The notes under the pieces: generated by a model
Databases searched by the model: none
What the model was told of the DNA's origin: nothing
Seen by the model: only the letters and a program-made list of their open reading frames with translations
Part shown: piece after piece, positions 8,378 to 42,597 of the stretch
How positions within the stretch are numbered: the first letter of the stretch is position 1
Layout: every line of letters begins with the position of its first letter
Source of the DNA: Egicoccus sp. AB-alg2
GTDB taxonomy: Bacteria > Actinomycetota > Nitriliruptoria > Nitriliruptorales > Nitriliruptoraceae
Length of the DNA stretch: 48,606 nt
Assembly: GCF_041821065.1 (NCBI RefSeq)
Contig: NZ_JBGUAX010000016.1
Coordinates: 1-48,606, forward strand
Direction: 5' to 3'
Program-made: the position numbers and the translations under genes

Positions 8378-9642
8378 GACAGCAGCAAAGTCATGAAGGC
8401 GGCATAGGCGAGACGGGATGGCACAGCGTTTCCGATCATGCTATGGAGGCTGACACGGCGATTGCAGGACGAGAAATCGAAGTAGTCGGGGAAGCCTTGG
8501 ATCCTGGCAGCCTCATGAGGCGTCAGTGTGCGCCGCTCATGTGGGTGGACGAACCGTCCCTGCCCGGTTGAGCCAAATCCCCTGGTAATCGTCGGTGCGG
8601 GTTGGTCCCCGCGCATCCGGCCGTAGACAGCCTTGTACGAGTGCTTGCGGAGGCGGTGACAGTCAGGACGCTCAGCGTCGGGAAGATCCCACAGACCATG
8701 ATCGAACAGATAGTTGATTCGCCGCCGGTTCTCGGCGGAATGGTTCGAAGACGTGTCGAAGATGCCTGTACTGGCAACGGGAACATCGTGGAGCGCTTGG
8801 TCGACGGTAAGGGCAGCTTCTGTGAACTGGCCAGACACCGCGTCGATATCAATCATTGAGTCGCGAGAGGCAAGGAGAAGGTGGCGCCTCCTCGTCTGCG
8901 CGGCGCCAACACGGTCCGCCCTGATTACACCGCTGGAGACGAAGTAGCCGGCCCGCGCTAGAGCCTGCGTCGCCGCAGGAACGACCCCCCGTCGGTCATG
9001 AGCTACTCCAGGAACGTTCTCGACCAGCACGAAACGGGGGCGGACGATCTCCGCGAACCGTGCGACTCGAAGGTAGAGAGCGTTCTTCGGATCACGCCTT
9101 CTCGTGTGGTTGTTCAGATCGGAGTGGCCCTGGCATGGAGGCCCACCGATTACGAAATCCACGCCATCGAACTCATCTCGCAGACGTCTCTCTGCGAATG
9201 ACGGCGCCTCTCCGAGGCCGCCATCCACGAGACGCGTCACGTCGCCGTCGAAGAGGGCGGACGGCGAGAAGTTCCGTTCAAAGACGGTCAGCGCGTCGAC
9301 ATCCGTGTCGACCGCCAAGATCGATTCCAGTCGGCGCCCAATCGCCTCGGCAGCCGCCTCAAGTCCGAGACTCAAGCCGCCACAACCCGCGAAGAGGTCG
9401 ACCGAGGTCAACGGTCGGGCCGTCTCATCTCGCGGAGGGCGCACCGCCCGGGCCAGCCAGCCCTGGGAGAAGGCCGTGAAGGGCGCCTCGCCGACACCCG
9501 GGGGGGCAAGCACTCGCGTTACATGCCTGTTCCCATCCCTGTCGACAATCGTCCTGCGGACGTGTGCACCGTCGAAGGCGTAGGCCTCAGCGGCCCCGGC
9601 GAGGGGGCGGGGATCTGTGGTGACATCCATTGATAATGACAT
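8374..9642 (-). CDS. C5 cytosine DNA methyltransferase (first of pair)
   Basis: About 422 residues from ATG 9642; ATG 9630 is almost as good, and the open frame continues upstream to 9744 without homology. An unusual N-terminal segment of about 90 residues precedes motif I (VDLFAGCGGLSLGL). Then come GGPPCQGHSD with the catalytic Cys, VLVENVPG, QTRRRHLLLAS and the final SMIGNAVPSRLA. It heads the restriction operon and begins 14 bases after the end of the peptidoglycan hydrolase gene. It may therefore be read through from there or have its own promoter inside that gene. Confidence 0.92.
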   Translation of the reverse strand: MSLSMDVTTDPRPLAGAAEAYAFDGAHVRRTIVDRDGNRHVTRVLAPPGVGEAPFTAFSQGWLARAVRPPRDETARPLTSVDLFAGCGGLSLGLEAAAEAIGRRLESILAVDTDVDALTVFERNFSPSALFDGDVTRLVDGGLGEAPSFAERRLRDEFDGVDFVIGGPPCQGHSDLNNHTRRRDPKNALYLRVARFAEIVRPRFVLVENVPGVAHDRRGVVPAATQALARAGYFVSSGVIRADRVGAAQTRRRHLLLASRDSMIDIDAVSGQFTEAALTVDQALHDVPVASTGIFDTSSNHSAENRRRINYLFDHGLWDLPDAERPDCHRLRKHSYKAVYGRMRGDQPAPTITRGFGSTGQGRFVHPHERRTLTPHEAARIQGFPDYFDFSSCNRRVSLHSMIGNAVPSRLAYAAFMTLLLS

Positions 9643-9656
9643 GGGTGGAACTCTAC

Positions 9657-11111
9657 CTAGGGGTGTGACACAGCGGCGGCAGGCCGGGGCGGGGGCGTCG
9701 GCCAAGACCAGAGCGCAGGCCCCACGACGCCCGCCGGTGGGCACGAAGCAGCCGCTAGTCGGCGGTCATCGTGCCGCCCCGCACGACTCTCCGCGGGCGC
9801 TCGTTCTCGAGGAGGGGGTGTCCCTGGAGGTGTTGTAGACGCGGTGGCCGGCATCGATTGTTCGAAGGTGAACCGGGCCACACGCGCTTCGTCCGCCCAC
9901 GCTGACACCTCGCGCGTGTAGCCGGCTCTTCGGAAGGTCACGGGGCGGCCAGGGGTGATGGCGGCGAGTTTGGACCAGTCGGGACGGCCGGCGTAGAGCA
10001 GAACAAGGACTTGCCCGTGGGTCCAGTTCGTGATGCCGAGATTGGTTGGGTCGCTCCAGCCGAGGTGCAGGTGTCGGGTGTGGGCGTCATCGGAGAAGAA
10101 GCCTGGAAGTCGTGCAAGCTCGGGCCAGGGTGTCCCGATTTCGCTGGGTCGGAGTGGCGGCCGCAGAGCGTGGAGTCGTTCGGCGAGCGCGCGAGCCGTC
10201 GGGTTGGTCACGTCTACTCGTCGCCCGTCCACCCCGGCGATGTCGACGGCACGGCCGTGCCAGTGGTGAGAAACGCGGCAGCCGGGGTAGTCGCCGCCGC
10301 CGATGCAGCGGGAGTGACCGGTCTTGAGGCTGACGACCGTGAGCGTGTGGTCCTGGCTAAGGCGCTGGAGCACGGTGAGGACTCGTGCGTCGATGCGTCC
10401 GGCGGCGATGTCGTCGCGACCAGCGGGGTAGATGTCGAGGCGCGGATTGGCGAGCACCATCGCGATCAGCGTGGGCGAGGCCAAGGTCGACTCGGTGCCG
10501 GCGGCCGCGTAGCTCGTGGCGATCTCGAGGACGCGGTCGCGGTACGCGGTCGACCGGTTGTAGGCGAGGATCGCCTGCGGGATCCGTGCCGGATCGCTGG
10601 CTCCGACCGCGCAGAGGTAGTGGGCGGCGGAGTGAATGGCGTCGACGGCGTTGTGCGGGTCGGCGCCCCCGCTGCCGGTCGCGTCGATTCCGTAGGCGGA
10701 CCAGGTGCTCGGGATGAACTGCATCGGCCCGACGGCGCGGTCGTAGGTGGTGTCGCCGTCGTAGCGACCGCGGTCCGTGTCGAGGATCCGCGCGATGCCG
10801 GGTGAGCCGTCGAGGGCCACGCCGATGATGGGCGGCGCCACGGTTCCGTCTGGCTGGAGCCGTGCGCCGCCGAGGCGGCCGTGATCGGACTCGACCTTGC
10901 CGACGGCGGCGAGTACGGACCAAGGGAGGGTCGGGCAGCGGCGGTTGGTCGCGTCCTGGTAGAGCGCCAGATAGGCAGAAGGGATGTCAGCCCTCGCGCT
11001 ATCGATCGGGGTGAGCCCGGCGCCGCCGGCGGCCGCGGCCAGGACGAGCACCGGGAGCGAGAGAACCGCGAGCAGGCCCAGGACCGCGACCACGCCCAAG
11101 GCCCGCAGCAT
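9657..11111 (-). CDS. Two-domain peptidoglycan hydrolase: lytic transglycosylase plus M15-like peptidase
   Basis: 484 residues from ATG 11111, preceded by GGGGGGAGAGG; a GTG at 11138 is the alternative. An N-terminal hydrophobic anchor or signal (VVAVLGLLAVLSLPVLVLAA) is followed by an SLT domain with catalytic Glu in VGKVESDHG, GPMQFIPSTW and AILAYN. After a linker, SHHWHGRAVDIA and HTRHLHLGW give the H..G.A.D and H.H zinc-ligand pattern of M15/VanY-like peptidases. Such enzymes open the wall for a type IV secretion channel. The Pro/Arg-rich tail after about residue 430 is low complexity and may be an artefact of the adjoining restriction island. It is divergent from the T4SS operon. Confidence 0.8.
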   Translation of the reverse strand: MLRALGVVAVLGLLAVLSLPVLVLAAAAGGAGLTPIDSARADIPSAYLALYQDATNRRCPTLPWSVLAAVGKVESDHGRLGGARLQPDGTVAPPIIGVALDGSPGIARILDTDRGRYDGDTTYDRAVGPMQFIPSTWSAYGIDATGSGGADPHNAVDAIHSAAHYLCAVGASDPARIPQAILAYNRSTAYRDRVLEIATSYAAAGTESTLASPTLIAMVLANPRLDIYPAGRDDIAAGRIDARVLTVLQRLSQDHTLTVVSLKTGHSRCIGGGDYPGCRVSHHWHGRAVDIAGVDGRRVDVTNPTARALAERLHALRPPLRPSEIGTPWPELARLPGFFSDDAHTRHLHLGWSDPTNLGITNWTHGQVLVLLYAGRPDWSKLAAITPGRPVTFRRAGYTREVSAWADEARVARFTFEQSMPATASTTPPGTPPPRERAPAESRAGRHDDRRLAAASCPPAGVVGPALWSWPTPPPRPAAAVSHP

Positions 11112-14135: not shown

Positions 14136-15628
14136 TGGACGGGTCGGTTCGCCGCTACGAGTTCGGTGCTGCCGGTGAGGATCACACGGTGGTGCTCGGC
14201 CTGCGGGCCGGTCAGCTCGGGGTGCTGGCGGTGGCGCTGCTGATGGCGGTCGCGACGGTGCGAGTCGATGGCAGCGCGGTCGGGTTCAGTCTCGCGATCG
14301 GCGTCGTCGTGATCGCTGGGGTGGTGGCGTTCTGGCCGGTCGCCGGCCGAACGCTCGAGCAGTGGGTCCCGACCGTCGCGCGCTGGGCGACAGTCCGCGC
14401 CCTGCGTCGTGACCGCTACCTCTCCCCCATGCCGCTGCTCGGCCACGGCCCAGACGGCTCAGCCGTGCAGCATCCGCCACCGACGCTGACCGACGTGCGG
14501 CTGCTCGCCGCCCCGCTCGCCACGGGAGGACGGGAGGTCGGAGTCATCCACGACCGCCGGAGCGGGACGTACGCGGCGGCGCTCGTGGTGCGCGGGCGCT
14601 CGTTCCAGCTCGCCGACACGCCGGAGAAGCAGCGCCGGCTGGCCGCCTGGGGCGGGGTGCTGGCTGGGCTCGCCCGTGCCTCCTCGCCGGTGCACCGGCT
14701 GCAGTGGATCGAGCGCACCGTGCCGGAGGATGCAGACGTGATGGGCCGCTACCTCGCCGAATCGGTTCGGGTCCCTCGGCAGCATCCGACGCTCGCGTCC
14801 TACCTCGAACTGGTCGACCGTGGAGGGCCGACCGCACCGCAGCACGAGACGCTGCTGGTCGTCGCGATCTCGAGCGTCCGGGCCCGCCGGGCGATCAGGC
14901 TGGCCGGCGGCGGCGATGCCGGCGCCGCCGAGGTGGTGCTCCGCGAGGTGGTGTCGGTCCAGCGCACGCTGCAATCGGCGGACATCGTGGTCGACGGGAT
15001 CCTGACGCCGAGGTTGCTGGCAGGGGCGCTTCGGACCGCGTTCGACCCCTCGGCCCGCGTCGGGTTCGCCCGCCGGGCCGCAACCGCCGGCGACGAGGCT
15101 GGGACCGACCCGGCCAACGCGTGGCCGCTCGCCACGGCGACGTCGTGGGCCAGCTACCGCACCGGGGACGTGTGGCATGCGACCTACTGGGTGGCGCAAT
15201 GGCCCCGAAGCCCGGTCGGGCCGGACTTCCTGACGCCGCTGCTGGTCGGGGTCACCGGGATGCGGTCGATTGCGGTCTCGATGGAGCCCGTCTCCCCTCT
15301 GCGGGCTCACCGGGAGGTCGAGCACGCGGTCCTCAAGGGGCTGGCCGACGAAGAGCTCCGTGCCCGAGCCGGGTTCACCTCGACCGCCCGCCGTCGGCGT
15401 GCCCAGGAGACCGCCGCCCGCCGCGAGCAGGAGCTCGCCGACGGGCACGCCGACTACCGACTCGCCGGCTACGCGACCGTGACGGCCGGTTCGCTGGAGG
15501 AACTCGAGGCCGCCTGCGGTGAGGTGGAGCAGGCGGCCCAGCAGTGCTCACTCGAGCTGCGCCGGCTCGACGGCGAGCAGGACGTGGCGTTCACCTGGAC
15601 GCTGCCGCTCGGGAGGGGGCTGCAGTGA
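14135..15628 (+). CDS. SCO6880/PrgI-like T4SS protein (N-terminal partner of the VirB4 ATPase)
   Basis: 497 residues; start overlaps the preceding TAA (TAATG) behind a very strong GGAGGAGGGG. Two membrane helices near residues 28-68, then a large soluble domain without a nucleotide-binding loop. This matches the actinobacterial SCO6880-type conjugation proteins, whose N terminus is PrgI-like and whose body resembles the N-terminal half of VirB4/TraC. The following gene supplies the ATPase half, so VirB4 appears split into two chains. Confidence 0.7.
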   Translation: MDGSVRRYEFGAAGEDHTVVLGLRAGQLGVLAVALLMAVATVRVDGSAVGFSLAIGVVVIAGVVAFWPVAGRTLEQWVPTVARWATVRALRRDRYLSPMPLLGHGPDGSAVQHPPPTLTDVRLLAAPLATGGREVGVIHDRRSGTYAAALVVRGRSFQLADTPEKQRRLAAWGGVLAGLARASSPVHRLQWIERTVPEDADVMGRYLAESVRVPRQHPTLASYLELVDRGGPTAPQHETLLVVAISSVRARRAIRLAGGGDAGAAEVVLREVVSVQRTLQSADIVVDGILTPRLLAGALRTAFDPSARVGFARRAATAGDEAGTDPANAWPLATATSWASYRTGDVWHATYWVAQWPRSPVGPDFLTPLLVGVTGMRSIAVSMEPVSPLRAHREVEHAVLKGLADEELRARAGFTSTARRRRAQETAARREQELADGHADYRLAGYATVTAGSLEELEAACGEVEQAAQQCSLELRRLDGEQDVAFTWTLPLGRGLQ

Positions 15629-16878
15629 GCCCCCGGGCCGGGGCCGGCGCGCATCGGGTGTCGACCGCGCACCTGCAGGCTGCCTACCCGTTCGTGTCAG
15701 AGGGCGGACTCGGCGGCCGTGGCGTCTACATCGGGCGGGAGCTGCTCGGCGGGGCGTTCTGCTACGACCCCTGGGACCTGTACGCCCAGGGGGTGCTAAC
15801 CAACCCGAACATGCTCGTCGCCGGGCAGGTCGGTCGCGGCAAGTCGTCGTTCATCAAGACCTACCTGTGGCGCCAGCAGGTGTTCGGCCGGCAAGCCTGG
15901 ATCATCGACCCCAAGGGCGAGTACGGGCCGCTCGCCGACGCCTGCGGCGTCCAGCCGGTCCGGCTCGGCCCGGGGCTGCCGGTTCGGCTCAACCCGCTCG
16001 ACGCCACGGCGTGGGGCAGCTCGCTCGATGAGGGCGAGGTGACCCGCCGGCACCTGAGCCTGCTGACCTCGCTCGCCGCCGCCTCGCTCGGACGAGGGCT
16101 GACTCCCGACGAGCAAGCCGCCTGCGAGGCCGCCATCGTCACCGCCTCGGCGCGAGCCGCCGGTGGGGTACTGACCTTGCCGGCCGTGGTCGAGGCGCTG
16201 CTGTGGCCCGACGACGATGCCGCCTCACGGATCGCCGCCGATGCCGCCGAGCTGGCGGCAGCCGGCCGACAGGTCGCGCTCGAGCTACGTCGGTTGTGCC
16301 AGGGCGACCTCGCCGGGATGTTCGACGGCCGCACCACCCCCGGCCTGGCCTTGGACGGGCCGCTGGTCGTGCTCGACCTCTCCGCGCTGTACGGCTCCCC
16401 GGCCCTCGGCCTGCTCATGCTGTGCGCGACCGCCTGGCTCCAGGCGTCGCTGCATGCGCACGCCGACCGGCGGCTGATCCTGGTGATCGACGAGGCCTGG
16501 GCGATCCTGCGCCACCTCGAGATCGCACGGTGGCTGCAGGCCTCGTGGAAGCTCTCCCGCCAGTACGGCGTGTCCAACATCGCGGTCATCCATCGGCTTT
16601 CCGACCTGCGTGCCGCCGGGGCGGACGGATCCGAACAGGCCGTCCTCGCTCAAGGGCTGCTCGCCGACTCCGAGACCCGGGTCATCTACGGCCAGTCCCC
16701 CGCCGAGACCGCCCAAGCCCGCGAGCTGCTCGGCCTCACCGACGTCGAAGCAGAGGTCCTGCCTGAGCTCGGCCGCGGAGTCGCGCTATGGCGGGTCGGG
16801 AACCGCTCCTTCCTCGTCGAGCACCACCTCGGCGCGCACGAACGCTCGCTGGTGGACACCGACGCGAGGATGACATGA
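15625..16878 (+). CDS. VirB4-like conjugation ATPase
   Basis: 417 residues from GTG 15625, overlapping the previous TGA (GTGA), with GGGAGGGGG upstream; the open frame extends back to 15544 but that part overlaps the neighbour. Walker A GQVGRGKS (67-74) and Walker B LILVIDEAW (284-292) are clear, as is the HerA/VirB4-type IIDPKGEYGPLADACG after Walker A. The protein is only the C-terminal ATPase part of VirB4. It should power assembly or substrate transfer of the type IV channel. Confidence 0.85.
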   Translation: MSPRAGAGAHRVSTAHLQAAYPFVSEGGLGGRGVYIGRELLGGAFCYDPWDLYAQGVLTNPNMLVAGQVGRGKSSFIKTYLWRQQVFGRQAWIIDPKGEYGPLADACGVQPVRLGPGLPVRLNPLDATAWGSSLDEGEVTRRHLSLLTSLAAASLGRGLTPDEQAACEAAIVTASARAAGGVLTLPAVVEALLWPDDDAASRIAADAAELAAAGRQVALELRRLCQGDLAGMFDGRTTPGLALDGPLVVLDLSALYGSPALGLLMLCATAWLQASLHAHADRRLILVIDEAWAILRHLEIARWLQASWKLSRQYGVSNIAVIHRLSDLRAAGADGSEQAVLAQGLLADSETRVIYGQSPAETAQARELLGLTDVEAEVLPELGRGVALWRVGNRSFLVEHHLGAHERSLVDTDARMT

Positions 16879-18596
16879 ATACCGGCCCGCGAGTCCAGCG
16901 TCCAAGCCCCGACCGGGTGGGGCACGGCGGGTCGTCCTTATCGCCGCTGGAGCTCATCGCCGCGTTCGCGCTCGTGGTCGTCGCGACGGCCGCTGGTCTG
17001 CTGTGGGCGACGGCACAGCTCAGCGGCCGCGCCACGTCCGGAGGGTGGCTCGACCTCCCTGCCAGTTCGATGCTCCGTGCGACCGCCCGCGTCGTCGCTG
17101 AACCAGGCGACCCGGCGGCGGCGTTTGGGCCCGAGCTCGCCTCACTACTTCCGGGGCCGGTCGCCTTCTGGAGCGTGTTCACCGTCCTGGGCGGTGTGTT
17201 GCTCACGGTGGTCGCAAGGGTCGCCATGTGGCGCTGGTCACACCGACGTGCCGCGGAGCCAGGAACGGCCCGGTGGGCAACCAAGCGCGACGTCCGGATG
17301 CTGCTCGTGCGTCGTCCGGTCCCCGGCCGTCTCACCCTCGGACACGGGCCGGGTGGGAGGCTGCTCGCGACCGAACCTGGCCACTCGCTGCTCGTGCTGG
17401 GGCCGACCCAGTCCGGGAAAACCTCCGGGCTCGCGATCCCGGCGATCCTCGAGTGGCCCGGCCCGGTCGTCGCCACCTCGGTCAAGACCGACCTGCTCGC
17501 CGACACCCTCGCCGACCGCAGCGAACGCGGCACCGTGTGGACCTACGACCCCACCGGCAGCGTCACCGGCATCCCCCGCGCTGGCTGGACCCCGCTCGCG
17601 AACTGCGGTACCTGGTCCGGGGCGCTGCGGACCGCATCGTGGCTCACCTCCGCCGCCCGCGACGCGCAACTCCAGGAAGCGGACTTCTGGTACGCGAACG
17701 CCGCCAAGCTCCTCGCACCGATGCTCTACGCCGCAGCCACGGCAGGTCTGACGATGACCGACGTCGTGCGGTGGATCGACCTCCAAGAGGACACTGAGGT
17801 CCGGATGCTTCTTCAAGCCACGGGCAACGAGGCCGCGATCGCCGCCGCCGAAGCATCCTGGCGACGGGAGGAACGTACGCGCTCGTCGGTGTTCACCACC
17901 GCCGAGACCATCCTCGCCGCGTTCTCCGATCCAGCCGTCGCCACGTCCACCGAGCAAGCCGACATCGACCCGGAGCAGCTGCTCGACGGCGGCGCGCACA
18001 CGCTCTACATCTGCGCTCCGCTGCACGAGCAGGATCGGCTCCGCCCCCTGTTCACAGCCCTCGCCCAGCACGTGCTGGTCACAGCCTACGAGCGGGCCGC
18101 CGTCCGCGGCCGGCTCGACCCGCCGCTACTGCTGGTCCTCGACGAAGCCGCCAACATCGCACCGCTACGCGACCTCGCTCAGGTCGCGTCTACGGCCGCC
18201 GGGCTCGGCATCCAGCTCGTGACCATCTGGCAGGACCGAGCCCAGATCACTGCTCGTTACGGCCATCACGCGGGCACGGTGTTCAACAATCACCGCGCGA
18301 AGCTGGTGCTGTCGGGGATTACCGACGCCAACACCACGAGCGACCTCGCCCAGGTCATTGGTGACACCGAGGTCATGCGCCAGTCGACGACCATCGACGC
18401 CGAAGGCCGAACCAGCGCTACCCGCGCCAGCCAGACCCAACTCCTCGCCAGCGCCGCCGCCCTCCGCCAGCTCCGGCCCTTCGAAGGCGTCCTCGTCTAC
18501 GGCCATCTGCCCCCGGTGGCCGTCAAGCTCCGACGCCCTGACCGTCCGGGCTCTATGGGTCGAGAGGGCCGATCGTCGCGCGCGCGAGTGGGGTGA
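16875..18596 (+). CDS. VirD4/TraD-type coupling protein
   Basis: 573 residues from ATG 16875, ATGA overlap with the VirB4-like gene; an upstream in-frame ATG at 16788 would overlap that gene and is rejected. Two N-terminal membrane helices (about 25-48 and 95-117) precede the motor domain with Walker A GPTQSGKT (176-183) and Walker B LLLVLDEAANIAPL, and the family motif TIWQDRAQITARYG. It couples the relaxase-DNA complex to the secretion channel. Last gene of the plus-strand operon; the cargo region begins directly after it. Confidence 0.9.
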   Translation: MNTGPRVQRPSPDRVGHGGSSLSPLELIAAFALVVVATAAGLLWATAQLSGRATSGGWLDLPASSMLRATARVVAEPGDPAAAFGPELASLLPGPVAFWSVFTVLGGVLLTVVARVAMWRWSHRRAAEPGTARWATKRDVRMLLVRRPVPGRLTLGHGPGGRLLATEPGHSLLVLGPTQSGKTSGLAIPAILEWPGPVVATSVKTDLLADTLADRSERGTVWTYDPTGSVTGIPRAGWTPLANCGTWSGALRTASWLTSAARDAQLQEADFWYANAAKLLAPMLYAAATAGLTMTDVVRWIDLQEDTEVRMLLQATGNEAAIAAAEASWRREERTRSSVFTTAETILAAFSDPAVATSTEQADIDPEQLLDGGAHTLYICAPLHEQDRLRPLFTALAQHVLVTAYERAAVRGRLDPPLLLVLDEAANIAPLRDLAQVASTAAGLGIQLVTIWQDRAQITARYGHHAGTVFNNHRAKLVLSGITDANTTSDLAQVIGDTEVMRQSTTIDAEGRTSATRASQTQLLASAAALRQLRPFEGVLVYGHLPPVAVKLRRPDRPGSMGREGRSSRARVG

Positions 18597-22037: not shown

Positions 22038-23126
22038 CTAACGACGCCGGAAGCTGCTCGCCCCGATCGTGGTCTCGCCCCACAGTCGAAGGAGCGACTC
22101 GTAGACGGCTGAACCGTGCCAGCGTCTCTGTGCTTTCCACTGCGCGACTGCTTCGGATTTGGTGGAATCAGCCTCTAGGAGACGACTCATGATCTCTCCG
22201 ACCACTGTCAGGTTGAGGCCAGTGGGGGCTGCTACGACGTCGGCTCCATGGTCGCCCGTGTCGACCTTGGCTCGAATCACGCGCCAACCGCTCTGGCGCA
22301 GGGCCTCGTCCTTGTTTTGGTCAAGCCCTGGGTCCTTGCGATGTCCGCCGCCGTCCCACTCCACGGCGACCTGGAGGTCGGTGATCAGAATGTCGGGCGT
22401 CACGAACGGCTGGTCCATGACGTATCCGCGAATCCGGACGGCGTCATGATCGAGGTCTACGGGGAACACCTGGGCCAACTCAGCGGCGAGGCGAAGCTCT
22501 TCCTTCGATCGCTGACGCGCACGATCGAGCCGGAAGACCCCGCCGCTTTTCGCTCGTTGGGAGACCCGGCTGTCGTGCTGCCTCCGCACCCAGCACCTCG
22601 GGCATGCATAGCCCTTCTCGATCTCGGTCGGCCTTCGGACGAACACGTGCGCCTCGCTGCACTCCCATAGCCAGGTAAGGCGTTCGTCGCCTGATGCTTC
22701 CGCCAAGGGGACAGGGTTTCGGTCCGAGAACCTCACTCCGTAGTGGCGGGCTCGCTCCACAAGGGTCCCGCCGGTGCTTTCACGCCGGCGAGCGAGTTGA
22801 GTGTCAATCTCGCACCAGGGACATCGCCGCCCCCGCTCGCTCTTCGCCCGTTGGACGACGGGTTGCTGCCAGCGATGGCGGACACCTTGAGGGCAAGTCC
22901 ACCAAGCGGCGTACGTACTTGATGCGCCGATCGTCGCCGGGGTGACCTCGCCGTTCCGCTCGTCGTCCCACTCGCTTACGAGCCACGGCGCCTTCTCAGC
23001 GAGTGACTGACCAGGGCGAGCGCGACGTGTACTGGCTGGGGGTCGGACGCGACTGACGGACTGCCAGTCCGGCTCCCACTGGGCCAGCCACCTAGCAACT
23101 TCGGGGTCACGGTATTGATTGGACAT
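22038..23126 (-). CDS. Zinc-ribbon (DUF4379-like) protein with Vsr/DUF559-like nuclease domain
   Basis: 362 residues, ATG 23126. The first half has two treble-clef/zinc-ribbon units: WWTCPQGVRHRW...CPWC and LWECSEAHVF...CPRC, in the style of DUF4379 repeats, preceded by WLVSEWDDERNGEVTPATI. The second half has VTPDILITDLQVAVEWDGGG and SGWRVIRAKVD, the core of small Vsr/DUF559-type PD-(D/E)XK nucleases. Likely a DNA-binding plus DNA-cutting protein; defence role is inference. Confidence 0.7.
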   Translation of the reverse strand: MSNQYRDPEVARWLAQWEPDWQSVSRVRPPASTRRARPGQSLAEKAPWLVSEWDDERNGEVTPATIGASSTYAAWWTCPQGVRHRWQQPVVQRAKSERGRRCPWCEIDTQLARRRESTGGTLVERARHYGVRFSDRNPVPLAEASGDERLTWLWECSEAHVFVRRPTEIEKGYACPRCWVRRQHDSRVSQRAKSGGVFRLDRARQRSKEELRLAAELAQVFPVDLDHDAVRIRGYVMDQPFVTPDILITDLQVAVEWDGGGHRKDPGLDQNKDEALRQSGWRVIRAKVDTGDHGADVVAAPTGLNLTVVGEIMSRLLEADSTKSEAVAQWKAQRRWHGSAVYESLLRLWGETTIGASSFRRR

Positions 23127-23556: not shown

Positions 23557-24390
23557 ATGACAGTAGTGTGGTATGAGGAATTCCGCCGTCACGATGAGCG
23601 TCGAATTGCCGCAAACGACTCCATGATGGCGCTGCTAGCGGGGTCGAAACTGGCCGCACATACATTGCAGCTAAACCAGGGTTCGAACCATCGATTGTCG
23701 GAGCTGTTTCCTAGTGTTCCCCACATCCGCAGGCTCGACATTACTACGGAATCAGCTCAAGAAATTCTGGAGGACGCGGAGGGTCAGTTGGGCGCCATGG
23801 CCGTTCCTTATGTCCTGGCGCTGCACGAAGACCTAGTCGTAGGCATGGGATCCCTACTGCTCGGCGAGGGGCTCATTTCAAAGCAGCGGCTGGCAGGTTT
23901 GAAGTCAGCAAATATGCATGCTTGCCTCGAAGAAGCTTCGAAACAGCACTTCTCGGTAGTGCTGCTTGACCTATTCCACCTGGTTCGGCTCTCAAGAAAC
24001 GCACACATCCACTCGGGAGGACGAGCCGAGTCCCCGCTGGTCAACCGGATCACGAAGGTAGCTGAGAGTTCGTTTTCTAGCTGGGAAGCCTTTACAGGAG
24101 ACACCTTTCCTCGCTATAGCATTGGCGACAAGGTGCGACTTGGGCTCCCCGAGTTGATTGGTTGCTTGGCGGTTACGAAGCGACTCGCTGAGGAAGCCAA
24201 CCAATTCCTTCAGTCGGCGATCTCGAGAGCAACGTGGGCAGATATGGTGGTTGCAGAGTGGAGACGGGAGCCCTCGCCCGGCAATCCTGCGCAGACTCTG
24301 CGCAAAGTCCGTGGGCTTGCACGGCACCGGTTTGCGGCGCTTTCTCTATCGGAGGATGAGTTGAAACAAGCTTTGGGGAGGGCCCAATGA
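23557..24390 (+). CDS. HEPN-like protein, candidate RNase
   Basis: 277 residues from ATG 23557; an upstream extension to 23410 is Arg/Gly-rich and unlikely. Mostly helical. FHLVRLSRNAHIHSGG contains Arg147-Asn-X3-His152, the R-X4-6-H signature of HEPN domains, many of which are metal-independent RNases in toxin, CRISPR and abortive infection systems. Base composition is clearly less GC-rich than the neighbours, suggesting recent transfer. It is the main plus-strand gene among minus-strand cargo. Its stop is followed at once by a strong hairpin shared with the convergent RNA gene at 24391-24564. Family assignment rests on one motif. Confidence 0.5.
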   Translation: MTVVWYEEFRRHDERRIAANDSMMALLAGSKLAAHTLQLNQGSNHRLSELFPSVPHIRRLDITTESAQEILEDAEGQLGAMAVPYVLALHEDLVVGMGSLLLGEGLISKQRLAGLKSANMHACLEEASKQHFSVVLLDLFHLVRLSRNAHIHSGGRAESPLVNRITKVAESSFSSWEAFTGDTFPRYSIGDKVRLGLPELIGCLAVTKRLAEEANQFLQSAISRATWADMVVAEWRREPSPGNPAQTLRKVRGLARHRFAALSLSEDELKQALGRAQ

Positions 24391-24422
24391 AGTAGGGCCG
24401 GTCCGATTGGACCGGCCCTACT
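24391..24422. terminator. Perfect 14-bp hairpin, bidirectional terminator
   Basis: AGTAGGGCCGGTCC pairs with GGACCGGCCCTACT around a 4-base loop, directly after the TGA of the HEPN-like gene and at the 3' end of the minus-strand structured RNA. T-rich tails are weak on both sides. Confidence 0.75.
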
Positions 24423-24564
24423 GACGAAGCGGGGGCTCTACCGTTGAGCTACGTCTCAGCGAACTGAGCCGCCAGGAGTCGAACCTGGATCTCCCTTTCG
24501 TTCTGTCGGATTCCCCAGTTGTGAACTGGTAGGCCCGGAGCCGAATCCGTGCGGAGCTACCGCG
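24391..24564 (-). ncRNA. Structured RNA with circularly permuted tRNA-like module (Y RNA / YrlA-like)
   Basis: Read on the minus strand. A possible -10 TAACAT (24570-24575) precedes a GCGG/CCGC hairpin (24551-24563). Next comes a junction closed by CGGATTC/GAATCCG (24543-24549 with 24507-24513) holding two hairpins. One strand of a helix (24493-24501) follows, then a canonical T arm CCAGG-TTCGACT-CCTGG (24472-24488). An acceptor-like hairpin closed by a TTCG tetraloop comes next (24452-24471; TGAGACG with CGGCTCA, six of seven pairs). After TA lies a canonical D arm GCTC-AACGGTA-GAGC (24435-24449), then the other helix strand (24424-24433) and the terminator. T and D loops carry the bases needed for a tRNA elbow. 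The order T arm, closed acceptor, D arm, with a helix in place of the anticodon arm, is that of the tRNA-mimic module of bacterial Y RNAs. No Rsr/Ro60 gene is in the window. Confidence 0.6.
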
Positions 24565-24705
24565 CAGACATGTTACCAGGCGGCGCGCCCGTCGGGCGAG
24601 GAGGTCCCTGCGCCACCCGGGGGCCGGCGTCCGGCCGGCGACGTTGGGACGCACACGTCAAGCATCGCGGCGCGCTGCGCGCCACGCACCGGAGCCCGCC
24701 CGCCG

Positions 24706-25972: not shown

Positions 25973-28216
25973 CTACCTGACAGTCGCGTTCGCGGCCCGG
26001 ACGATGTCGGCGACGACGGTGGGTAGATCCCCGCGAGGTGACAACCCGAGCTCCTTCATGGCTGCCACCGTTCGCTTGGCGAAGTGCATACCGAGGCGCA
26101 TCTCATGCATCCGCTCAGTCACCTCCTTCAAGGTCTCATGGCCTCGACGGGCCCCACGGAGTCCCTCCCAGCTGCTGAACTCTGGGTAGACCGCCCGCAC
26201 GGCCTCGTCCTCGATGTAGACGAGGATGTCCTCCCCGCGGAGACCGAAGAGATCCATGCGGCGACCCCGTCCCCTCAGGCGGCGCCGAAGGTCAATTAGG
26301 GCCCGCTCCTCCTTGGTACGGGGCTTTCCTCCTGCTTCTAGCCTGCCGGCATCGGCGTGGTCCAGCATCACGCCCATGCCGACATCTAGCACTAGCTCGA
26401 GGAGCTCCATCTGGGCGAGGGAAACAACCTCATTGGCTCCACGCATAGGCACGACGACAACGCCCGCCTCGAACAACAACTCCCGATAGAAGGCGCCGAG
26501 GACCAACGCATCAACGGGCCCCTCAACGAAGAGCACATAGCGGGTCAGCGCGAGGAGCTCACCGTGCGTCAGACCCAGTTGGGCGGACAGCGGCGAATCT
26601 ATATCGATGGCCGCCGGTTCGAAGGCCGTCACCACAGCGCCTTCAGGCGTCGGACTCAGATGCAAGTGGCGCCACCCCGACCGGCCCAGGAACAAATGCG
26701 AGTGGGTCGCGATCGCCACGCCGTGGGGGCGAGGGTGGGTGAAGGAGTCGATGATCCGCCGCTGAGCGCCCGGGTGCAGGTGCCGTTCAGGTTCGTCGTA
26801 GAAGTGCAACACCGCTGGTGGTGTGATCACATCCCTCCAGTCAGGAAGGCCTTCGAGAAGGAGTTGCACGAGCACGTCCCGCTTCTCTGGTGGCGCGTTC
26901 GACGATCCGCCCAGAACGTCGTATGCATCACCAACGGATCTGCGGATCTGGGAGAGCGCGGCGTCGAGATCCGCGACCAGCCAGGAGGCCTCGCCCCCTT
27001 CGCCGGACAGCTGCTCCTCGAGCTGGACGCCAATCGCGAGCTGCTGATCGCTGGTAAGGCGGTGAAGGCTCGACGCCAGCCAACCCATGTCGGTCTGTAG
27101 TTGCTCGAGTTCTGCAGCGCCCTGCGCAAGACCGATGTCCAACCAGGTCCTCTGCCCCGAGGACAAGCTCTCGAAATCGCCTCTTCTGGTGAGACGGAGG
27201 GCCGGCGCAGGCTCAGACCCGCGTGTGTCGAGCATCAGGCCTGTCGGGTACTCGCCGTCCGGGTAGAGCTCCAGATGCGGCGCGACCAGCTGTAACGCCT
27301 CGGTGGCCACACGACACGCCCGAACGAGCAGCCAGAAGCGAACGTCGCTTTCGAGTCTAGGACGCTCCTCTGAGGTGTCTGGAGGGTCGCGGAGCAGGAC
27401 GCCCTCGAAGGCCTCGGCAAGGGCGACCGCTGGAAGAACGGCATCCTCGAAGACGTCCACGAGGTCGAAGACTGCTTCATCTGCCGTGCGCTCCGACGCG
27501 AGCCATACCACATGGATCGGCGCCCGATCCCGCGGCGGCAGAGATAGGAGATCCACGTATCGACCCCGCCGCGGTTCCGACTCCTCCAACCAACGTCTCA
27601 GCGGGGCGAAAGCATCGGGCAGATCGGGAGCGAGGTCAACGAGCCAACCGGGGGGAGGACCTTCCAAGACGAGGGTTCTTGAATAACTGCGCCGGAACTC
27701 CACCTCGCTGGCAGCCTGCCACAGGTCGTCGTCGAACCAGCCCCGGCTCAGCCCCCGGGCCTCCTCGACGCCCTCCAGCTCAGAAAGGCGATACCGCACG
27801 AGCGGGCGGTCGGCGAAGGACCTGAACAGGTCGGCCAGCGCAGCCGGCTCGATCCCCGAGACCGCTTCTCTCCATGACGTTCCCGCCTCCACGCCGAGCA
27901 TGTTCCAGAACGCGGTAGCGCGCCGAAATGACTCGGGTGTTCCGCCAGATACGAACGAAGGGGGCAAGGGCAGCTCGGACGCGTCACCGCGGACAACCAC
28001 GGAGATCTCTGCATGCAGCGGGACTGCCGCTCGTCGCGCCAGTTGCCACAGACTCGCCTTGGATCCGAAAGCGAGCGCGATGGCCTCAAGGAAGTTTGTC
28101 TTTCCGCTGCCGTTCTGACCGTAGAGCACGACTTGACGGTCCCACTCGACCCGCACTTCTTGAAGGTTCTTGTAGCGGTGGACCTCGAATTCGAGGACTT
28201 CAACGGAGGGGCGCAT
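25973..28216 (-). CDS. OLD-family ATP-dependent nuclease (ABC ATPase plus TOPRIM)
   Basis: 747 residues from ATG 28216, where homology begins (VEVLEFEVHRYKNLQEVRV); the open frame upstream to 28420 is Arg-rich and rejected. Walker A GQNGSGKT (33-40), an ABC signature LSSGQRTW, Walker B FYDEPERHLHPG and the H-loop IATHSHLFL are present. They are followed by a TOPRIM domain (YVLFVEGPVDALVLG, GVMLDHADAG). OLD proteins cut DNA in an ATP-regulated way and occur alone or with a UvrD helicase (Gabija). No helicase adjoins it, so this is a stand-alone type. Likely an anti-phage nuclease. Confidence 0.82.
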   Translation of the reverse strand: MRPSVEVLEFEVHRYKNLQEVRVEWDRQVVLYGQNGSGKTNFLEAIALAFGSKASLWQLARRAAVPLHAEISVVVRGDASELPLPPSFVSGGTPESFRRATAFWNMLGVEAGTSWREAVSGIEPAALADLFRSFADRPLVRYRLSELEGVEEARGLSRGWFDDDLWQAASEVEFRRSYSRTLVLEGPPPGWLVDLAPDLPDAFAPLRRWLEESEPRRGRYVDLLSLPPRDRAPIHVVWLASERTADEAVFDLVDVFEDAVLPAVALAEAFEGVLLRDPPDTSEERPRLESDVRFWLLVRACRVATEALQLVAPHLELYPDGEYPTGLMLDTRGSEPAPALRLTRRGDFESLSSGQRTWLDIGLAQGAAELEQLQTDMGWLASSLHRLTSDQQLAIGVQLEEQLSGEGGEASWLVADLDAALSQIRRSVGDAYDVLGGSSNAPPEKRDVLVQLLLEGLPDWRDVITPPAVLHFYDEPERHLHPGAQRRIIDSFTHPRPHGVAIATHSHLFLGRSGWRHLHLSPTPEGAVVTAFEPAAIDIDSPLSAQLGLTHGELLALTRYVLFVEGPVDALVLGAFYRELLFEAGVVVVPMRGANEVVSLAQMELLELVLDVGMGVMLDHADAGRLEAGGKPRTKEERALIDLRRRLRGRGRRMDLFGLRGEDILVYIEDEAVRAVYPEFSSWEGLRGARRGHETLKEVTERMHEMRLGMHFAKRTVAAMKELGLSPRGDLPTVVADIVRAANATVR

Positions 28217-28376
28217 CACACCATTCTGACAGACGGAGGGCGGTGGATCACCGTCCTGGTCACCCCTTCGGGCGAGTCGGCCCCTCCTCCTCGTCCAGCG
28301 AGGCGCCCGTCGGCCGTACGCCCGCCTTCCTAGAATCAAGCCGGCTCGTCCTAACCCTCCGGAAAGAGGGGGGAGG

Positions 28377-28427
28377 CTTATGTGCGGGTGACGGTGACTC
28401 GGCATGGCGCGCAGAGTCACGGTGATG
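28377..28427 (+). repeat. Boundary repeat 8
   Basis: Left arm CTTATGTGCGGG (28377-28388), right arm GCGCGCAGA, tail GTCACGGTGATG. The TGA stop of the 5'-nucleotidase gene (28417-28419, minus) lies inside the conserved tail. Confidence 0.8.
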
Positions 28428-29385
28428 GATGGTCACCAAGTGGCCTAGTAACAGCCTGAGTGCTCTCCTGTTCGGTGCGCGAGGGATCCAGGCGGTACTC
28501 GGCCGGAACCTGCGCAGCGGGTGTCTGGGATCGAGCTGGCTCAAGATGAGCAGACTGGTCATCGAAGAAGATGTGCGGTCGGAGTACCCGTAATACGCCG
28601 GCCTTCTCCAGCCCGCCGAGGTAGAACGTCTCGTTCAGGTGGATGCCCCAGGAGCGCAGGGTCCGGATGACCCGCTTGTGAGCAGGTGCGTTGCGTGCCG
28701 TCACCAGGGACATTCGAAGAGGGTTGTCAGCCTCCGGAAACCGCTGCTGGATGCGCGAGAGCGCCCTGAGGAATGGCTGCAGCGGGCCAGGACTGAGTGG
28801 TTGATCGGCGTGAGCTTCTTCATGTTGCAAGAAGGCATCCAGACCACCGGCCCGGTAGATCGCTTCTGATTCTGCACTGAACAGAACAGCGTCGCCATCG
28901 AACGCAATCCTCACCTCCGATGGAATTTCATCCGTCGCCTCGTCGGGGACGCGAAGGATGCGTGCCGCCGCCACACCGTGTTGCATGGCTCCGGCTACGT
29001 CCTCCTCGTTTGCTGAGAGGAAGAGGTCGCAGCTGAATTCACGTAGGTAAGGGCCCGCGCTGGTCCCGTCAGTGAAGGCCCACCGGGGCACTTCGAGGCC
29101 ATGGTGTTCTACGGAGTTCATGACGCGCAGGCCGGTGTCGGCATTGTTCCGGGAGATGATCAAGACTTCGACGAGCGCCTCATCGGCTAGTTCGTTGATG
29201 CGCAAGAGTCCGCGCACGAGTGGAAGGGCTGTCCCTGCCGCTAGTGGCTCGTCCTCGTTGGCTGTCTGGTGCTCCCGGTAGGCCGCTAGCCCCTCTGTCT
29301 CAAAGATGCGGTGAGCTTCATCGAGGTCAAAGAGCGCGCGAGACGAAATGCCAACGACGAGTTTGTCCGCTAGATCGTAGGGCAA
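28417..29385 (-). CDS. 5'-nucleotidase, cytosolic cN-I type (PF06189-like)
   Basis: 322 residues, ATG 29385. LVVGISSRALFDLDEAHRIF at the N terminus, LIISRNNADTGLRVMNSV, IAFDGDAVLFSAESEAIY and HIFFDDQSAHLE are the hallmarks of the bacterial cN-I-like 5'-nucleotidases, HAD-fold enzymes that dephosphorylate nucleoside monophosphates. Its placement among nucleases could indicate a nucleotide-depleting or salvage role during phage attack; that is inference. The last about 40 residues are low complexity, and the stop codon falls inside repeat 8. Confidence 0.8.
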   Translation of the reverse strand: MPYDLADKLVVGISSRALFDLDEAHRIFETEGLAAYREHQTANEDEPLAAGTALPLVRGLLRINELADEALVEVLIISRNNADTGLRVMNSVEHHGLEVPRWAFTDGTSAGPYLREFSCDLFLSANEEDVAGAMQHGVAAARILRVPDEATDEIPSEVRIAFDGDAVLFSAESEAIYRAGGLDAFLQHEEAHADQPLSPGPLQPFLRALSRIQQRFPEADNPLRMSLVTARNAPAHKRVIRTLRSWGIHLNETFYLGGLEKAGVLRVLRPHIFFDDQSAHLEPARSQTPAAQVPAEYRLDPSRTEQESTQAVTRPLGDHPSP

Positions 29386-39509: not shown

Positions 39510-42383
39510 TCAAGCGACGTCGCGGCCGACGTCACGCCGCGGCGTCAGCGGCAACTCGGCTGGCGGGAGACGAAGGGCGCGGCGCGCCGCGAGCAGCCCA
39601 CGGACCGCCTGCTGGTAGACGTCGCGCGCGGCCTCGTCGGCGGGAACGGCTCCGAGCGGGAGCCGTGCGTCGTGGATGGCGTGCTGCTTGCGGTAGGTGT
39701 CGATCGCGGCGGCGGCCGTGTCCCAGACCTGTTGTCGGTCGGGGTCGGCGGGGCGGGGGCCAAGCGCCCGCGTCAGGTGCCCGCCCGAGGCGGCAACGAC
39801 CTCGGGTGTCGTCTTCGCCGGGGCGTCGTTGTCGGGCTGGTGGTCGAGCGCGAGGGTCTGTTGGTGGCTGCGGTGCAGGTCGGCGGTGAGCCGCTCGGCC
39901 GGGCTGCGGGGGTCGTGCTGGTGGACCTCGGGATGGGTGGGGTCGTCGATCGGGTCATGGTCGTGGTCGTGGCCGACGAGGTAGAGGCGGTTGTCGGTAC
40001 GGCCACGGGAGAGGGCGACGTAGCCCCATTCGCGGTAGATCTCGTCGCTGCCGAGCACGAAGGTCGCGTCGCAGCTGAGCCCTTGGGCCTTGTGGGCGGT
40101 GAGTGCGTAGCCGTGGGTGAGGTGGCCGGCGTCGAGGTAGTCGGCCGGCAGATCCACCAGGTCGTGCGTGTCGTCGCGGCGGACGGTGAGCTGACGGGTT
40201 CGGTGGTCGATGGCGGTGACGGTGGCGCGGGTGCCGTTGAGGACGCCCAGGTGGCGGTGGTTGCGCAGGCACAGCACCCGGTCGCCGACCTGGAACTGGT
40301 GACCGGCGGCGGTGAGCGGCCGGCCGGTGAGCTGCCCGTCGGCGGCCATCCGGGTGCGGGCACGGGCGTTGAGGTCGTCGATGTCGATGCGGCGGGCAGC
40401 GACCATGACCGCATCGCGACCGTGCTCGGCGCTGGCTTGCCACCAGTCCCCCACGAGCTGTTCACGCACCGTGTCGATGGTCTCGGCGACCACGAGCCGG
40501 CCGTGCTCGGCGTAGGCGTCGACGGCGGCGGGCAGGTCGCCGTCGCGGAGCTCGTCGAGCGCGGCGATCTCCCACTGGTGGTGCTGCCGGCGGTTGTCGG
40601 TCAGCTCGACGGCGGGCAGCCGGGCGGTGAGGCCAGCGAACGCGCCGCCGGCGTCGATCTCGGGCAGCTGGTGGTGGTCGCCGACCAGGACCAGCTTGGT
40701 GCCCGTCTGCTGGATGGCGTCTAGGAGCCGGGCGAGGGTGCGGGTGCCGACCATGCCGGCCTCGTCGACCACCAGTACCCCGCCGGGCGGGAGCGCTGCG
40801 CCCGGGCGGGCGAGCTCGGCGAGCAGCCGATCGATCGTCGAAGCCGGGATGCCCGAGCCGGTCTGCAGCTCGAGGGCGGCGCGGGCCGCGAGCGCGCAGC
40901 CGACCACGTCGATGCCGGCTTCGCGCCAGGCGTCGTAGGCGGCGCCGAGGGTGTAGGTCTTGCCCGTGCCCGCCCGGCCCACCAGCACCTCGACGCCCTG
41001 CCCGGAGCGGGTCAGCTGCTCGACGGCGCGGCGCTGCTCGCCGGTCAGCGTCGCCCGCTGCGCCAGGACCCTGTCGACGGTCTGCTCGTCGACGACGGCC
41101 CGGCCAGCGCCAGTGAGCCGGGTGGCGGTGTCGACCAACTGCTGTTCGAGGGCGAGCAGCTCGGGCGTGGTGTAGCGGGGCTCCCCGGCGCCGAGGTGGA
41201 CGAGCCGGCCGTCGGCAAGGCGGATGCCAGCGGCGTCCGCGAGCCGGGTCACGGGCGCGTTGGTGCCTGTGAGCCGGATCGTGCCGGGCTCGGCCGGATC
41301 GAGCAGCCGGTCGGCGAGCCGTTCGACCGCGATGACGTCCGCACCGTGGCGGAGCTGTTCGCACCAGCCCCGCAGCGCATCCCGGCGGGTGAACGTCGAG
41401 GCCTTGGCGGTCAGCCCGGCGGGGCCGAGCAGCCAGCCGACCTGCCGCACCCAATCCGGATCGCCGACCGTCTCGCGGGCCGCGCGGGGGTCGGTGACCG
41501 CGGCGACCTCCCGGCCGCGAAACCCCAGGGCGGCGGCCCGTTCCCGCCAGCCGGCCCGTAGGCGGTCGGCGTCGGCGTGGGACTTGGCGGCACGGGTCGC
41601 CAGCGTGGCGACCTGCGCCGCCCGGGCGGAGGTGTGCCCGTGGCGGTGGAGGGCGGCGAGGATGTCGGCACGGCGGCGGGAGAACGCCTCGATCAGCGGC
41701 CGCGGGATGCCCTCGAGGTCGGCGTAGCCGTTGGTGACCGGCCCGAAGGCCACGTCAAGGCGGCGGGTGAGCTCGGCGCGGAGCTGGGCCTGGTAGAGGT
41801 AGCCAGCGGTCTTGCCGTGCAGGTACAGATGCCGGGCATCGAGCGACCGCCACCGGCCGTCGTCGGTCGTGTGGGCGAGGTTGGCGACCAGGACGTGGGT
41901 GTGCAGCAGCGGGTCGTCCGCACGGGAGGTGCGGTGCCGGAACGCGGCGGCGACGAACCCGTCAGCCTGAACCTGTTCGTGGCCGCCCTTGCCCCGCCGG
42001 GCGTGGGCGGCATGCCGTTCGAGGTAGTCCAGCGCCGCGACCACGGCGGCATCGTGGGCCTGGCGCACCTGCCGGGAGACGTCCGGGTCGGCAAGCGCCC
42101 ACAGCAGCGATACCGACTTCGGCGCCCGGAAGGTGAGATCGAACCCGGGGACGGTGCGGGCATGTCCCACCAACGGCTGCCCGTCGACCGGCGACGCACC
42201 GGCCAGCACCGTCCGGAGCGTTTCGGCGGTGACCAGCCCGGACAACCCGAGTCGGGTCGAGGCGGTGCCGAGCCACCGGCCGGGGGCTTCGCCGACGCCG
42301 GTGTAGTAGGCCTCGACCGAGGTGGCGACCGTGGTCAGGTAGTACTCGGCGCCGCCGTGGGCGAGCTTGCCGATGTTCAGCAT
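39510..42383 (-). CDS. MobF/TrwC-type relaxase-helicase
   Basis: 957 residues from ATG 42383, where homology begins (MLNIGKLAHGGAEYYL), with GGGAGG upstream. Relaxase domain: paired tyrosines at 14-15 and 26-27, and the metal-binding histidines His150, His161 and His163 (LLHTHVLVANLAH), the same numbering as in TrwC. Helicase domain: Walker A GRAGTGKT (469-476), DEAG (540-543), LVGDHHQLPEIDAGGAF, then ALTAHKAQGLSCD and YVALSRGR. It nicks the transfer origin, stays bound to the 5' end and unwinds the strand for transfer by the coupling protein at 16875. The origin itself was not identified. Confidence 0.95.
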   Translation of the reverse strand: MLNIGKLAHGGAEYYLTTVATSVEAYYTGVGEAPGRWLGTASTRLGLSGLVTAETLRTVLAGASPVDGQPLVGHARTVPGFDLTFRAPKSVSLLWALADPDVSRQVRQAHDAAVVAALDYLERHAAHARRGKGGHEQVQADGFVAAAFRHRTSRADDPLLHTHVLVANLAHTTDDGRWRSLDARHLYLHGKTAGYLYQAQLRAELTRRLDVAFGPVTNGYADLEGIPRPLIEAFSRRRADILAALHRHGHTSARAAQVATLATRAAKSHADADRLRAGWRERAAALGFRGREVAAVTDPRAARETVGDPDWVRQVGWLLGPAGLTAKASTFTRRDALRGWCEQLRHGADVIAVERLADRLLDPAEPGTIRLTGTNAPVTRLADAAGIRLADGRLVHLGAGEPRYTTPELLALEQQLVDTATRLTGAGRAVVDEQTVDRVLAQRATLTGEQRRAVEQLTRSGQGVEVLVGRAGTGKTYTLGAAYDAWREAGIDVVGCALAARAALELQTGSGIPASTIDRLLAELARPGAALPPGGVLVVDEAGMVGTRTLARLLDAIQQTGTKLVLVGDHHQLPEIDAGGAFAGLTARLPAVELTDNRRQHHQWEIAALDELRDGDLPAAVDAYAEHGRLVVAETIDTVREQLVGDWWQASAEHGRDAVMVAARRIDIDDLNARARTRMAADGQLTGRPLTAAGHQFQVGDRVLCLRNHRHLGVLNGTRATVTAIDHRTRQLTVRRDDTHDLVDLPADYLDAGHLTHGYALTAHKAQGLSCDATFVLGSDEIYREWGYVALSRGRTDNRLYLVGHDHDHDPIDDPTHPEVHQHDPRSPAERLTADLHRSHQQTLALDHQPDNDAPAKTTPEVVAASGGHLTRALGPRPADPDRQQVWDTAAAAIDTYRKQHAIHDARLPLGAVPADEAARDVYQQAVRGLLAARRALRLPPAELPLTPRRDVGRDVA

Positions 42384-42597
42384 CCCCCGCCCCCTCCCCC
42401 GTCGCCGTCGCAGCGGTCGGCGGGCGGGTTGTCGGCGCGCTCCGCGGGCGGGTCGGTGGGGTCCGGGCGGGGTGGCTCGCACTGGGGTGCAAGTCTGTGT
42501 CGGGGCTTGTGAGGGTCGCGGGCGGGGCGGACAGGGACGGGAGGTCGGTTGGCGGGACCAGCGGGTCCGGTCTCGCAGCGAGGTCCGGGAGCGGCGC

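Follow-up and report, generated by a model that had tools for sequence, protein, structure and literature searches.

Bacterial RNAs that mimic a circularly permuted tRNA are known as partners of Ro60/Rsr, and the question raised by this locus is whether the tRNA-like RNA on its minus strand is a Y RNA of that kind and, if it is not, with which protein it works. By the window is meant the whole 48,606-nt stretch of Egicoccus sp. AB-alg2 DNA that was analysed, and positions refer to it unless another locus is named. The analysis suggests that the RNA and a convergently encoded protein with a HEPN motif make up an undescribed RNA-protein module on mobile DNA.

Structure of the minus-strand RNA

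The RNA mimics a tRNA that has been circularly permuted, in the topology of bacterial Y RNA (YrlA), and its flanking strands can pair, as GGG/CCC plus ACGAA/UUCGU, where the anticodon stem would stand. The original prediction had read a T arm, an acceptor hairpin sealed by TTCG, a D arm and pairable flanks from this strand, and had added a 5' hairpin domain, a −10-like box and a 14-bp 3' hairpin over 24575-24391; all of these are present where it placed them. The features of the RNA are as follows.

24575-24570, minus strand: −10-like box TAACAT; the homologous RNAs are preceded by similar TANNNT boxes
24530..24569, minus strand: 5' leader with more hairpins, part of a three-way junction predicted in the MFE fold
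24515..24529, minus strand: conserved 5' hairpin P1, CCAGT-TCACA-ACTGG; 5/5 pairs kept in 4/4 homologues
24493..24503, minus strand: 5' strand of helix P2, GAACGAAAGGG, at the anticodon-stem position, pairing with 24433-24423; compensatory changes in homologues
24435..24488, minus strand: circularly permuted tRNA-like core; 59 bits with core model R1, 30.7 bits with YrlA
24488-24472, minus strand: T arm CCAGG-TTCGACT-CCTGG
24471-24452, minus strand: sealed acceptor hairpin CGGCTCAG-TTCG-CTGAGACG, 8 pairs, one a G·A mismatch
24451-24450, minus strand: U8/A9 (TA) spacer
24449-24435, minus strand: D arm GCTC-AACGGTA-GAGC
24423..24433, minus strand: 3' strand of helix P2, CCCGCTTCGTC; compensatory changes in homologues
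24391..24422, no strand assigned: 14-bp inverted repeat lying between RNA and gene, seen in the window copy only

Directly 3' of the P2 5' strand lies AGAT, a 4-nt variable region, and the Levitt pair is A15-U48, as in other sealed RNAs. In P1 two of the pairs show changes on both sides across homologues, and its loop can alternatively be read as the 7-nt UUCACAA. A relaxed descriptor of T arm, acceptor and D arm matches the window once, at this RNA, and simulated sequence once in 4.86 Mb; the folding z-score is −4.8, and the tRNA-like fold lies 2 kcal/mol above the computed MFE in a calculation that leaves out tertiary contacts. The RNA is not a translatable tRNA or tmRNA, as had been predicted from its acceptor end, which is sealed and not open: ARAGORN makes no tRNA call in the window and an Rfam search of the window, tRNA and tmRNA models included, gives nothing over threshold.

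The proposed transcript of about 170 nt fared less evenly, since its elements are there but the inverted repeat and the far 5' hairpins have no counterparts in the homologues and no sigma-70 consensus promoter was found for the minus-strand RNA. The leader at 24530..24569 is not kept and aligns poorly (alignment A4). With the inverted repeat and the hairpins 5' of 24533 absent from the homologues, the conserved RNA is about 24424-24533 on the minus strand. The repeat at 24422-24391 lacks a U-tract and drew no terminator call, and it is possible that it acts as a bidirectional terminator.

Y RNAs, Ro60/Rsr and sealed RNAs elsewhere

The structure of YrlA is reportedly 6CU1, from Wang et al. in 2018, and the conserved Ro-binding stem has the consensus GNCGAAN0-1G. 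Bacterial Y RNA (YrlA) superposes on tRNA by circular permutation (PMC11472068) and RNAs of the type bind Rsr and PNPase (PMC8394870). The window RNA shares with them the permuted order of T arm, sealed acceptor and D arm, entered via the anticodon-stem position (PMC11472068, PMC8394870), and differs in its extra hairpin P1, in having a convergent HEPN-motif gene as partner in place of Rsr/TROVE, in its sub-threshold Rfam score and in a Ro-site-like helix that is not conserved. YrlA (RF02553) is its best Rfam match at 30.7 bits, below the threshold of 69, and the RNA is the best and only YrlA match in its genome. As sealed RNAs from genomes with Rsr genes often score just 32-45 bits against the same model, the sub-threshold score is weak evidence, and lies not far below the broad class.

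The original prediction of a Y RNA thus stands as to topology and fails at the defining partner, on the genomic side. That no Ro60/Rsr gene lies nearby had been noted from the start and is borne out by Pfam TROVE across the window; by the same model no such gene was found elsewhere in the genome (98.5% complete) or in 65 relatives of the class. A 17-sequence Rsr profile, which detects divergent Rsr beside many other such RNAs, also gave nothing in the genome, and an orphan Y RNA with a hidden Rsr was rejected because both searches came back empty. A good-looking Ro-binding site, GA(A)CGAA/TTCGTC, was likewise rejected since the Ro-site-like AACGAAAG (CGAA) occurs in the window copy alone and is missing in the three homologues described below. 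Descent from Y RNAs and convergence on them are both quite plausible origins for the RNA, a choice beyond what four sequences can tell.

A pattern scan of 85,000 genomes gave some twelve loci that are truly sealed, with Streptomyces, Embleya, Glycomyces and Myxococcus among the hosts, and many sealed RNAs occur in phages (IMG/VR). In many cases a TROVE/Rsr gene is 25-600 nt away, and 85 of the 157 collected sealed cores have an Rsr gene within 3 kb. Their 15-48 (Levitt) pair co-varies as within one tRNA body, unlike in tandem tRNA neighbours. Where identical tRNA genes stand in tandem, perfect "sealed acceptor" hairpins arise from one copy to the next, a source of false positives when permuted tRNA-like RNAs are sought (L193-L201, L203, L204, L211, L212).

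Phage sealed tRNA-like RNAs from IMG/VR (L127, 6451-6502, minus strand; L085, 2352-2400, plus strand; L069, 3837-3880, minus strand; L076, L115 and L130), several of them beside Rsr genes, have an apparent full anticodon arm just 5' of the T arm and inside an outer stem, with loops CUUUUAA, CUUGUAA and CUGUGGA, so that the whole tRNA would be circularly permuted between positions 26 and 27. In other phage sealed RNAs (L059, L133, L020) the acceptor loop starts like a discriminator base plus CCA (GCCA, UCCA), as if opening a permuted tRNA there could yield an end fit for charging. Streptomyces-type genomes (L191, L192 and L197, same phylum; L178 and L190) have sealed Y RNAs with UACUUC as a motif on the 5' side of the T arm; some of these RNAs come in tandem twos spaced by about 240 nt, and in one genome, S. 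lasiicapitis (L178), no full-length Rsr was seen in the genome.

The convergent gene, its homologues and their surroundings

The RNA ends beside the stop codon of a gene on the opposite strand.

23557-24390, plus strand: convergent partner gene, 277 aa, with an RN-x3-H motif of HEPN type; homologues on plasmids
23995..24012, plus strand: RNAHIH, the motif R147-N148-x3-H152, invariant in the alignment

By tblastn three homologues of this protein, with identities of 39, 31 and 26%, were found on plasmids. The plasmids are those of Mycolicibacterium arabiense (pJCM18538), Rhodococcus sp. USK13 (pUSK13_1) and Streptomyces sp. NBC_01483, and each homologue has a homologous RNA on the opposite strand, convergent with it. 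The RNAs were located via the protein and not the protein via the RNA, and core model R1, which predates knowledge of the plasmid loci and is independent of them, scores 59 bits in the window, 49.6 in Rhodococcus, 25.1 in Mycolicibacterium and 23.7 in Streptomyces, at the exact expected place. The convergent and nearly overlapping order is found in 4/4 copies; the homologous RNAs run up to the stop codon, with 9-22 nt from D arm to stop codon against 44 nt in the window, and are without the window's inverted repeat. When the window RNA itself was searched by blastn against plasmids, phages and the genomes of its family, no relative was found, and matches of R1 in the family and class, the window excepted, were rejected as tandem tRNAs.

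The RNAs all have the P1 hairpin with UUCR in its loop, the sequence GGAGAYC on the 5' side of the T arm, a D arm that is invariant and a sealed acceptor whose loops differ, and the P2 pairing is kept while its sequence varies (GCGGG/CCCGC, AGUUGG/CCAACU, GUGGG/CCCAC). Over 27 pairs in four RNAs 90.7% of cells are paired and 11 of the 27 pairs show compensatory, both-side changes, a result that no shuffle matches (0/500) and that falls to 32-45% in slid controls. The acceptor is the least certain part of the alignment (74% paired; four sequences), and with the unambiguous helices alone 98.5% of cells are paired and 5/17 pairs have both-side changes. Covariation is present in acceptor, T arm, P2 and P1, and one T-arm pair occurs in all four Watson-Crick types. 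The original prediction had made the conservation of arm pairings in homologous loci its own test, and the outcome favours the structure. The P1 loops, UUCACAA, UUCGUAA, UUCGCGA and UUCGCUG, follow an anticodon-loop-like UUCRNNN, and in the Rhodococcus copy ARAGORN mistakes P1 for an anticodon arm; this likeness is a lead and not a result.

The partner protein belongs to no Pfam, NCBIfam or PHROG family. HEPN RNases are marked by Rx4-6H with a polar residue, usually giving RN or RD, after the arginine (PMC3710099), and the R-x4-H with N after R found here fits that signature. R147, N148 and H152 are invariant in 5/5 sequences (the four pair proteins and a remote Rhizobium homologue), G155 is likewise common to them, and RN...H has a background of 2% among ORFs of that size in the collected loci. 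The Streptomyces copy gives a weak match over the motif to the PADLOC RTasHEPN (DRT-associated HEPN) model (E 0.003). On the motif and this one weak profile match the protein is a probable HEPN RNase. A single-sequence AlphaFold model of it is all-helical, at a confidence (pLDDT 44) too low to count as evidence for the four-helix HEPN fold, and no solved structure was found to match the protein. The remote proteobacterial homologue, on Rhizobium beringeri plasmid pRlX4 (L358, 1761-2696, plus strand), reads RNCIVH with the same GR follow-up, and no tRNA-like RNA was detected near it; no further homologues were found in phages or IMG/VR.

Conjugation genes share the contig with the RNA, in the form of a TrwC relaxase (39510-42482), a TraG-type coupling protein (16788-18596) and an additional TraG/TrwB-like ATPase (15544-16878). 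Among the defence-like cargo an AAA ATPase (815 aa) gene overlaps a PF06189 5'-nucleotidase gene, the latter matching a phage-defence candidate (PADLOC PDC-S08), as a candidate two-gene defence operon at 25973-29385 on the minus strand; the ATPase has no match elsewhere among 396 phylum genomes. This ATPase (25973-28420) was ruled out as the RNA's partner, since searches of plasmids and of the phylum gave no match to it; that the plasmid homologues have unrelated large neighbours counts further against it. A protein with a treble-clef zinc finger (DUF4379) and a DUF559 (Vsr-like nuclease) domain is encoded among the cargo genes at 22038-23126 (minus strand), and two C5-cytosine DNA methylase genes stand side by side on the conjugative element at 7232-9744 (minus strand). 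The Mycolicibacterium pair adjoins a Pycsar effector and a NACHT-type ATPase gene, and the neighbourhoods of the pairs look like defence cargo. No third gene common to the neighbourhoods was found, which makes gene plus RNA the unit of the module, and as the three homologous pairs come from a plasmid-only collection they give no basis for a restriction to mobile DNA. We conclude that the module is a two-part one of probable HEPN RNase and tRNA-mimic RNA, in neither Rfam nor Pfam, and no description of the pair was found in the open-access literature.

What the RNA may do to the RNase

The HEPN-related toxin AbiF is neutralised through direct binding of the non-coding RNA RCd22 (PMC12373285), and it is by analogy with this pair that an antitoxin role seems the most likely one, with about even confidence: the RNA would bind and restrain the HEPN RNase, whose release would lead to cutting of tRNA or other RNA and a stop to growth. 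AbiF (Abi_2) with RCd22, the abiF motif RF03085, resembles the present module in that a HEPN-type toxin and a structured non-coding RNA go together on mobile DNA, but the partner protein falls outside the Abi_2 family by Pfam and the RNA, a tRNA mimic and not a set of abiF hairpins, has no RF03085 match and lies convergent and not upstream. Type III toxin-antitoxin systems (ToxIN, CptIN) share the proposed logic of an RNA antitoxin that binds an RNase toxin, and differ in a ToxN fold where here there is a HEPN-type motif and in tandem repeats where here there is a single tRNA-like RNA. PrrC and RloC, HEPN anticodon nucleases, share the RNase motif and have tRNA as substrate, in contrast to which the partner protein lacks an ATPase domain and has a tRNA-like RNA encoded beside its gene. 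Against the antitoxin role stand the convergent order, where in type III and AbiF systems the RNA gene precedes the toxin gene, the small number of protein-RNA pairs known (four, three of them from the plasmid-only collection), a HEPN assignment made from the motif and one weak profile match, and the remote Rhizobium homologue with no such RNA nearby.

In the proposed scheme the elbow formed by D and T arms, the closed acceptor arm, P2 in place of the anticodon stem and the extra P1 loop would present the RNase with a tRNA look-alike, and the RNA would bind and keep it inactive as a substrate-like antitoxin. Were the RNA lost, consumed or displaced, for which phage shut-off of host transcription, phage attack on tRNAs or loss of the mobile element are possible triggers, the RNase would be set free to cut tRNA or other RNA, and growth would stop. 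With the tRNA elbow and acceptor kept and the anticodon stem replaced by a helix, such an RNA could occupy a tRNA-cutting HEPN enzyme without offering it a cleavage site. It is a more tentative proposal, possible but rather doubtful, that the RNA is a non-cleavable decoy on the RNase's tRNA-binding surface, its anticodon-like loop moved to P1, and that the module senses the tRNA pool as a new class of immune or addiction system.

The same pairing and structure, with the tRNA recognition features kept in the RNA, would also suit the opposite polarity, in which the RNA is a required cofactor or bait and its alteration by phage enzymes that attack, modify or repair tRNA switches the RNase on. The anticodon-loop-like P1 of all four RNAs and the ARAGORN reading in Rhodococcus speak for such a sensor or guide, which we nonetheless consider unlikely, as stand-alone HEPN toxins are restrained by those RNA partners that are known (PMC12373285).

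Less probable again is a divergent orphan Y RNA of YrlA type, its Ro60/Rsr acting in trans or lost and the HEPN gene a chance neighbour. The shared permuted topology, YrlA as best Rfam match with similar scores in Rsr genomes, and the frequency of Rsr beside sealed cores are in its favour, but no TROVE is present in the genome or in 66 class genomes, the window's Ro-site-like CGAA is not in the homologues and the HEPN neighbour is kept in all four copies. Among 72 sealed RNAs without a nearby Rsr none has an RN...H ORF within 2 kb, and so the association with this protein is specific.

Equally improbable is regulation in cis only, with the convergent RNA, read on into the gene, acting on the HEPN mRNA as antisense or as a terminator, and its tRNA-like fold giving no more than stability. 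This would account for the nearly overlapping order and for the homologous RNAs that reach the stop codon without an inverted repeat, yet antisense pairing needs no covarying tRNA-like architecture of acceptor, T arm, P2 and P1, and the RNA core is outside the coding sequence. That the RNA is a functionless leftover from an integration site or from tRNA genes in tandem is scarcely credible, for although tandem identical tRNAs can mimic a sealed acceptor and the D half, taken with the 10 nt after it, agrees with host tRNA-Gly(CCC) at 25/27 positions, there are no flanking anticodon arms, ARAGORN calls nothing in the window and a structure with compensatory changes is kept in three other genera.

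Overall the locus links a covariation-supported permuted tRNA mimic not to Ro60/Rsr but to a mobile-element protein that is probably a HEPN RNase. Should the RNA restrain this enzyme, as in the antitoxin role favoured above, the module would be a new RNA antitoxin architecture and an example of a tRNA look-alike that controls a tRNA-cutting enzyme, and if the decoy proposal is true the Y RNA fold would have a Ro60-independent role. The finding suggests that some of the "Y RNA-like" matches without Rsr belong to other systems.
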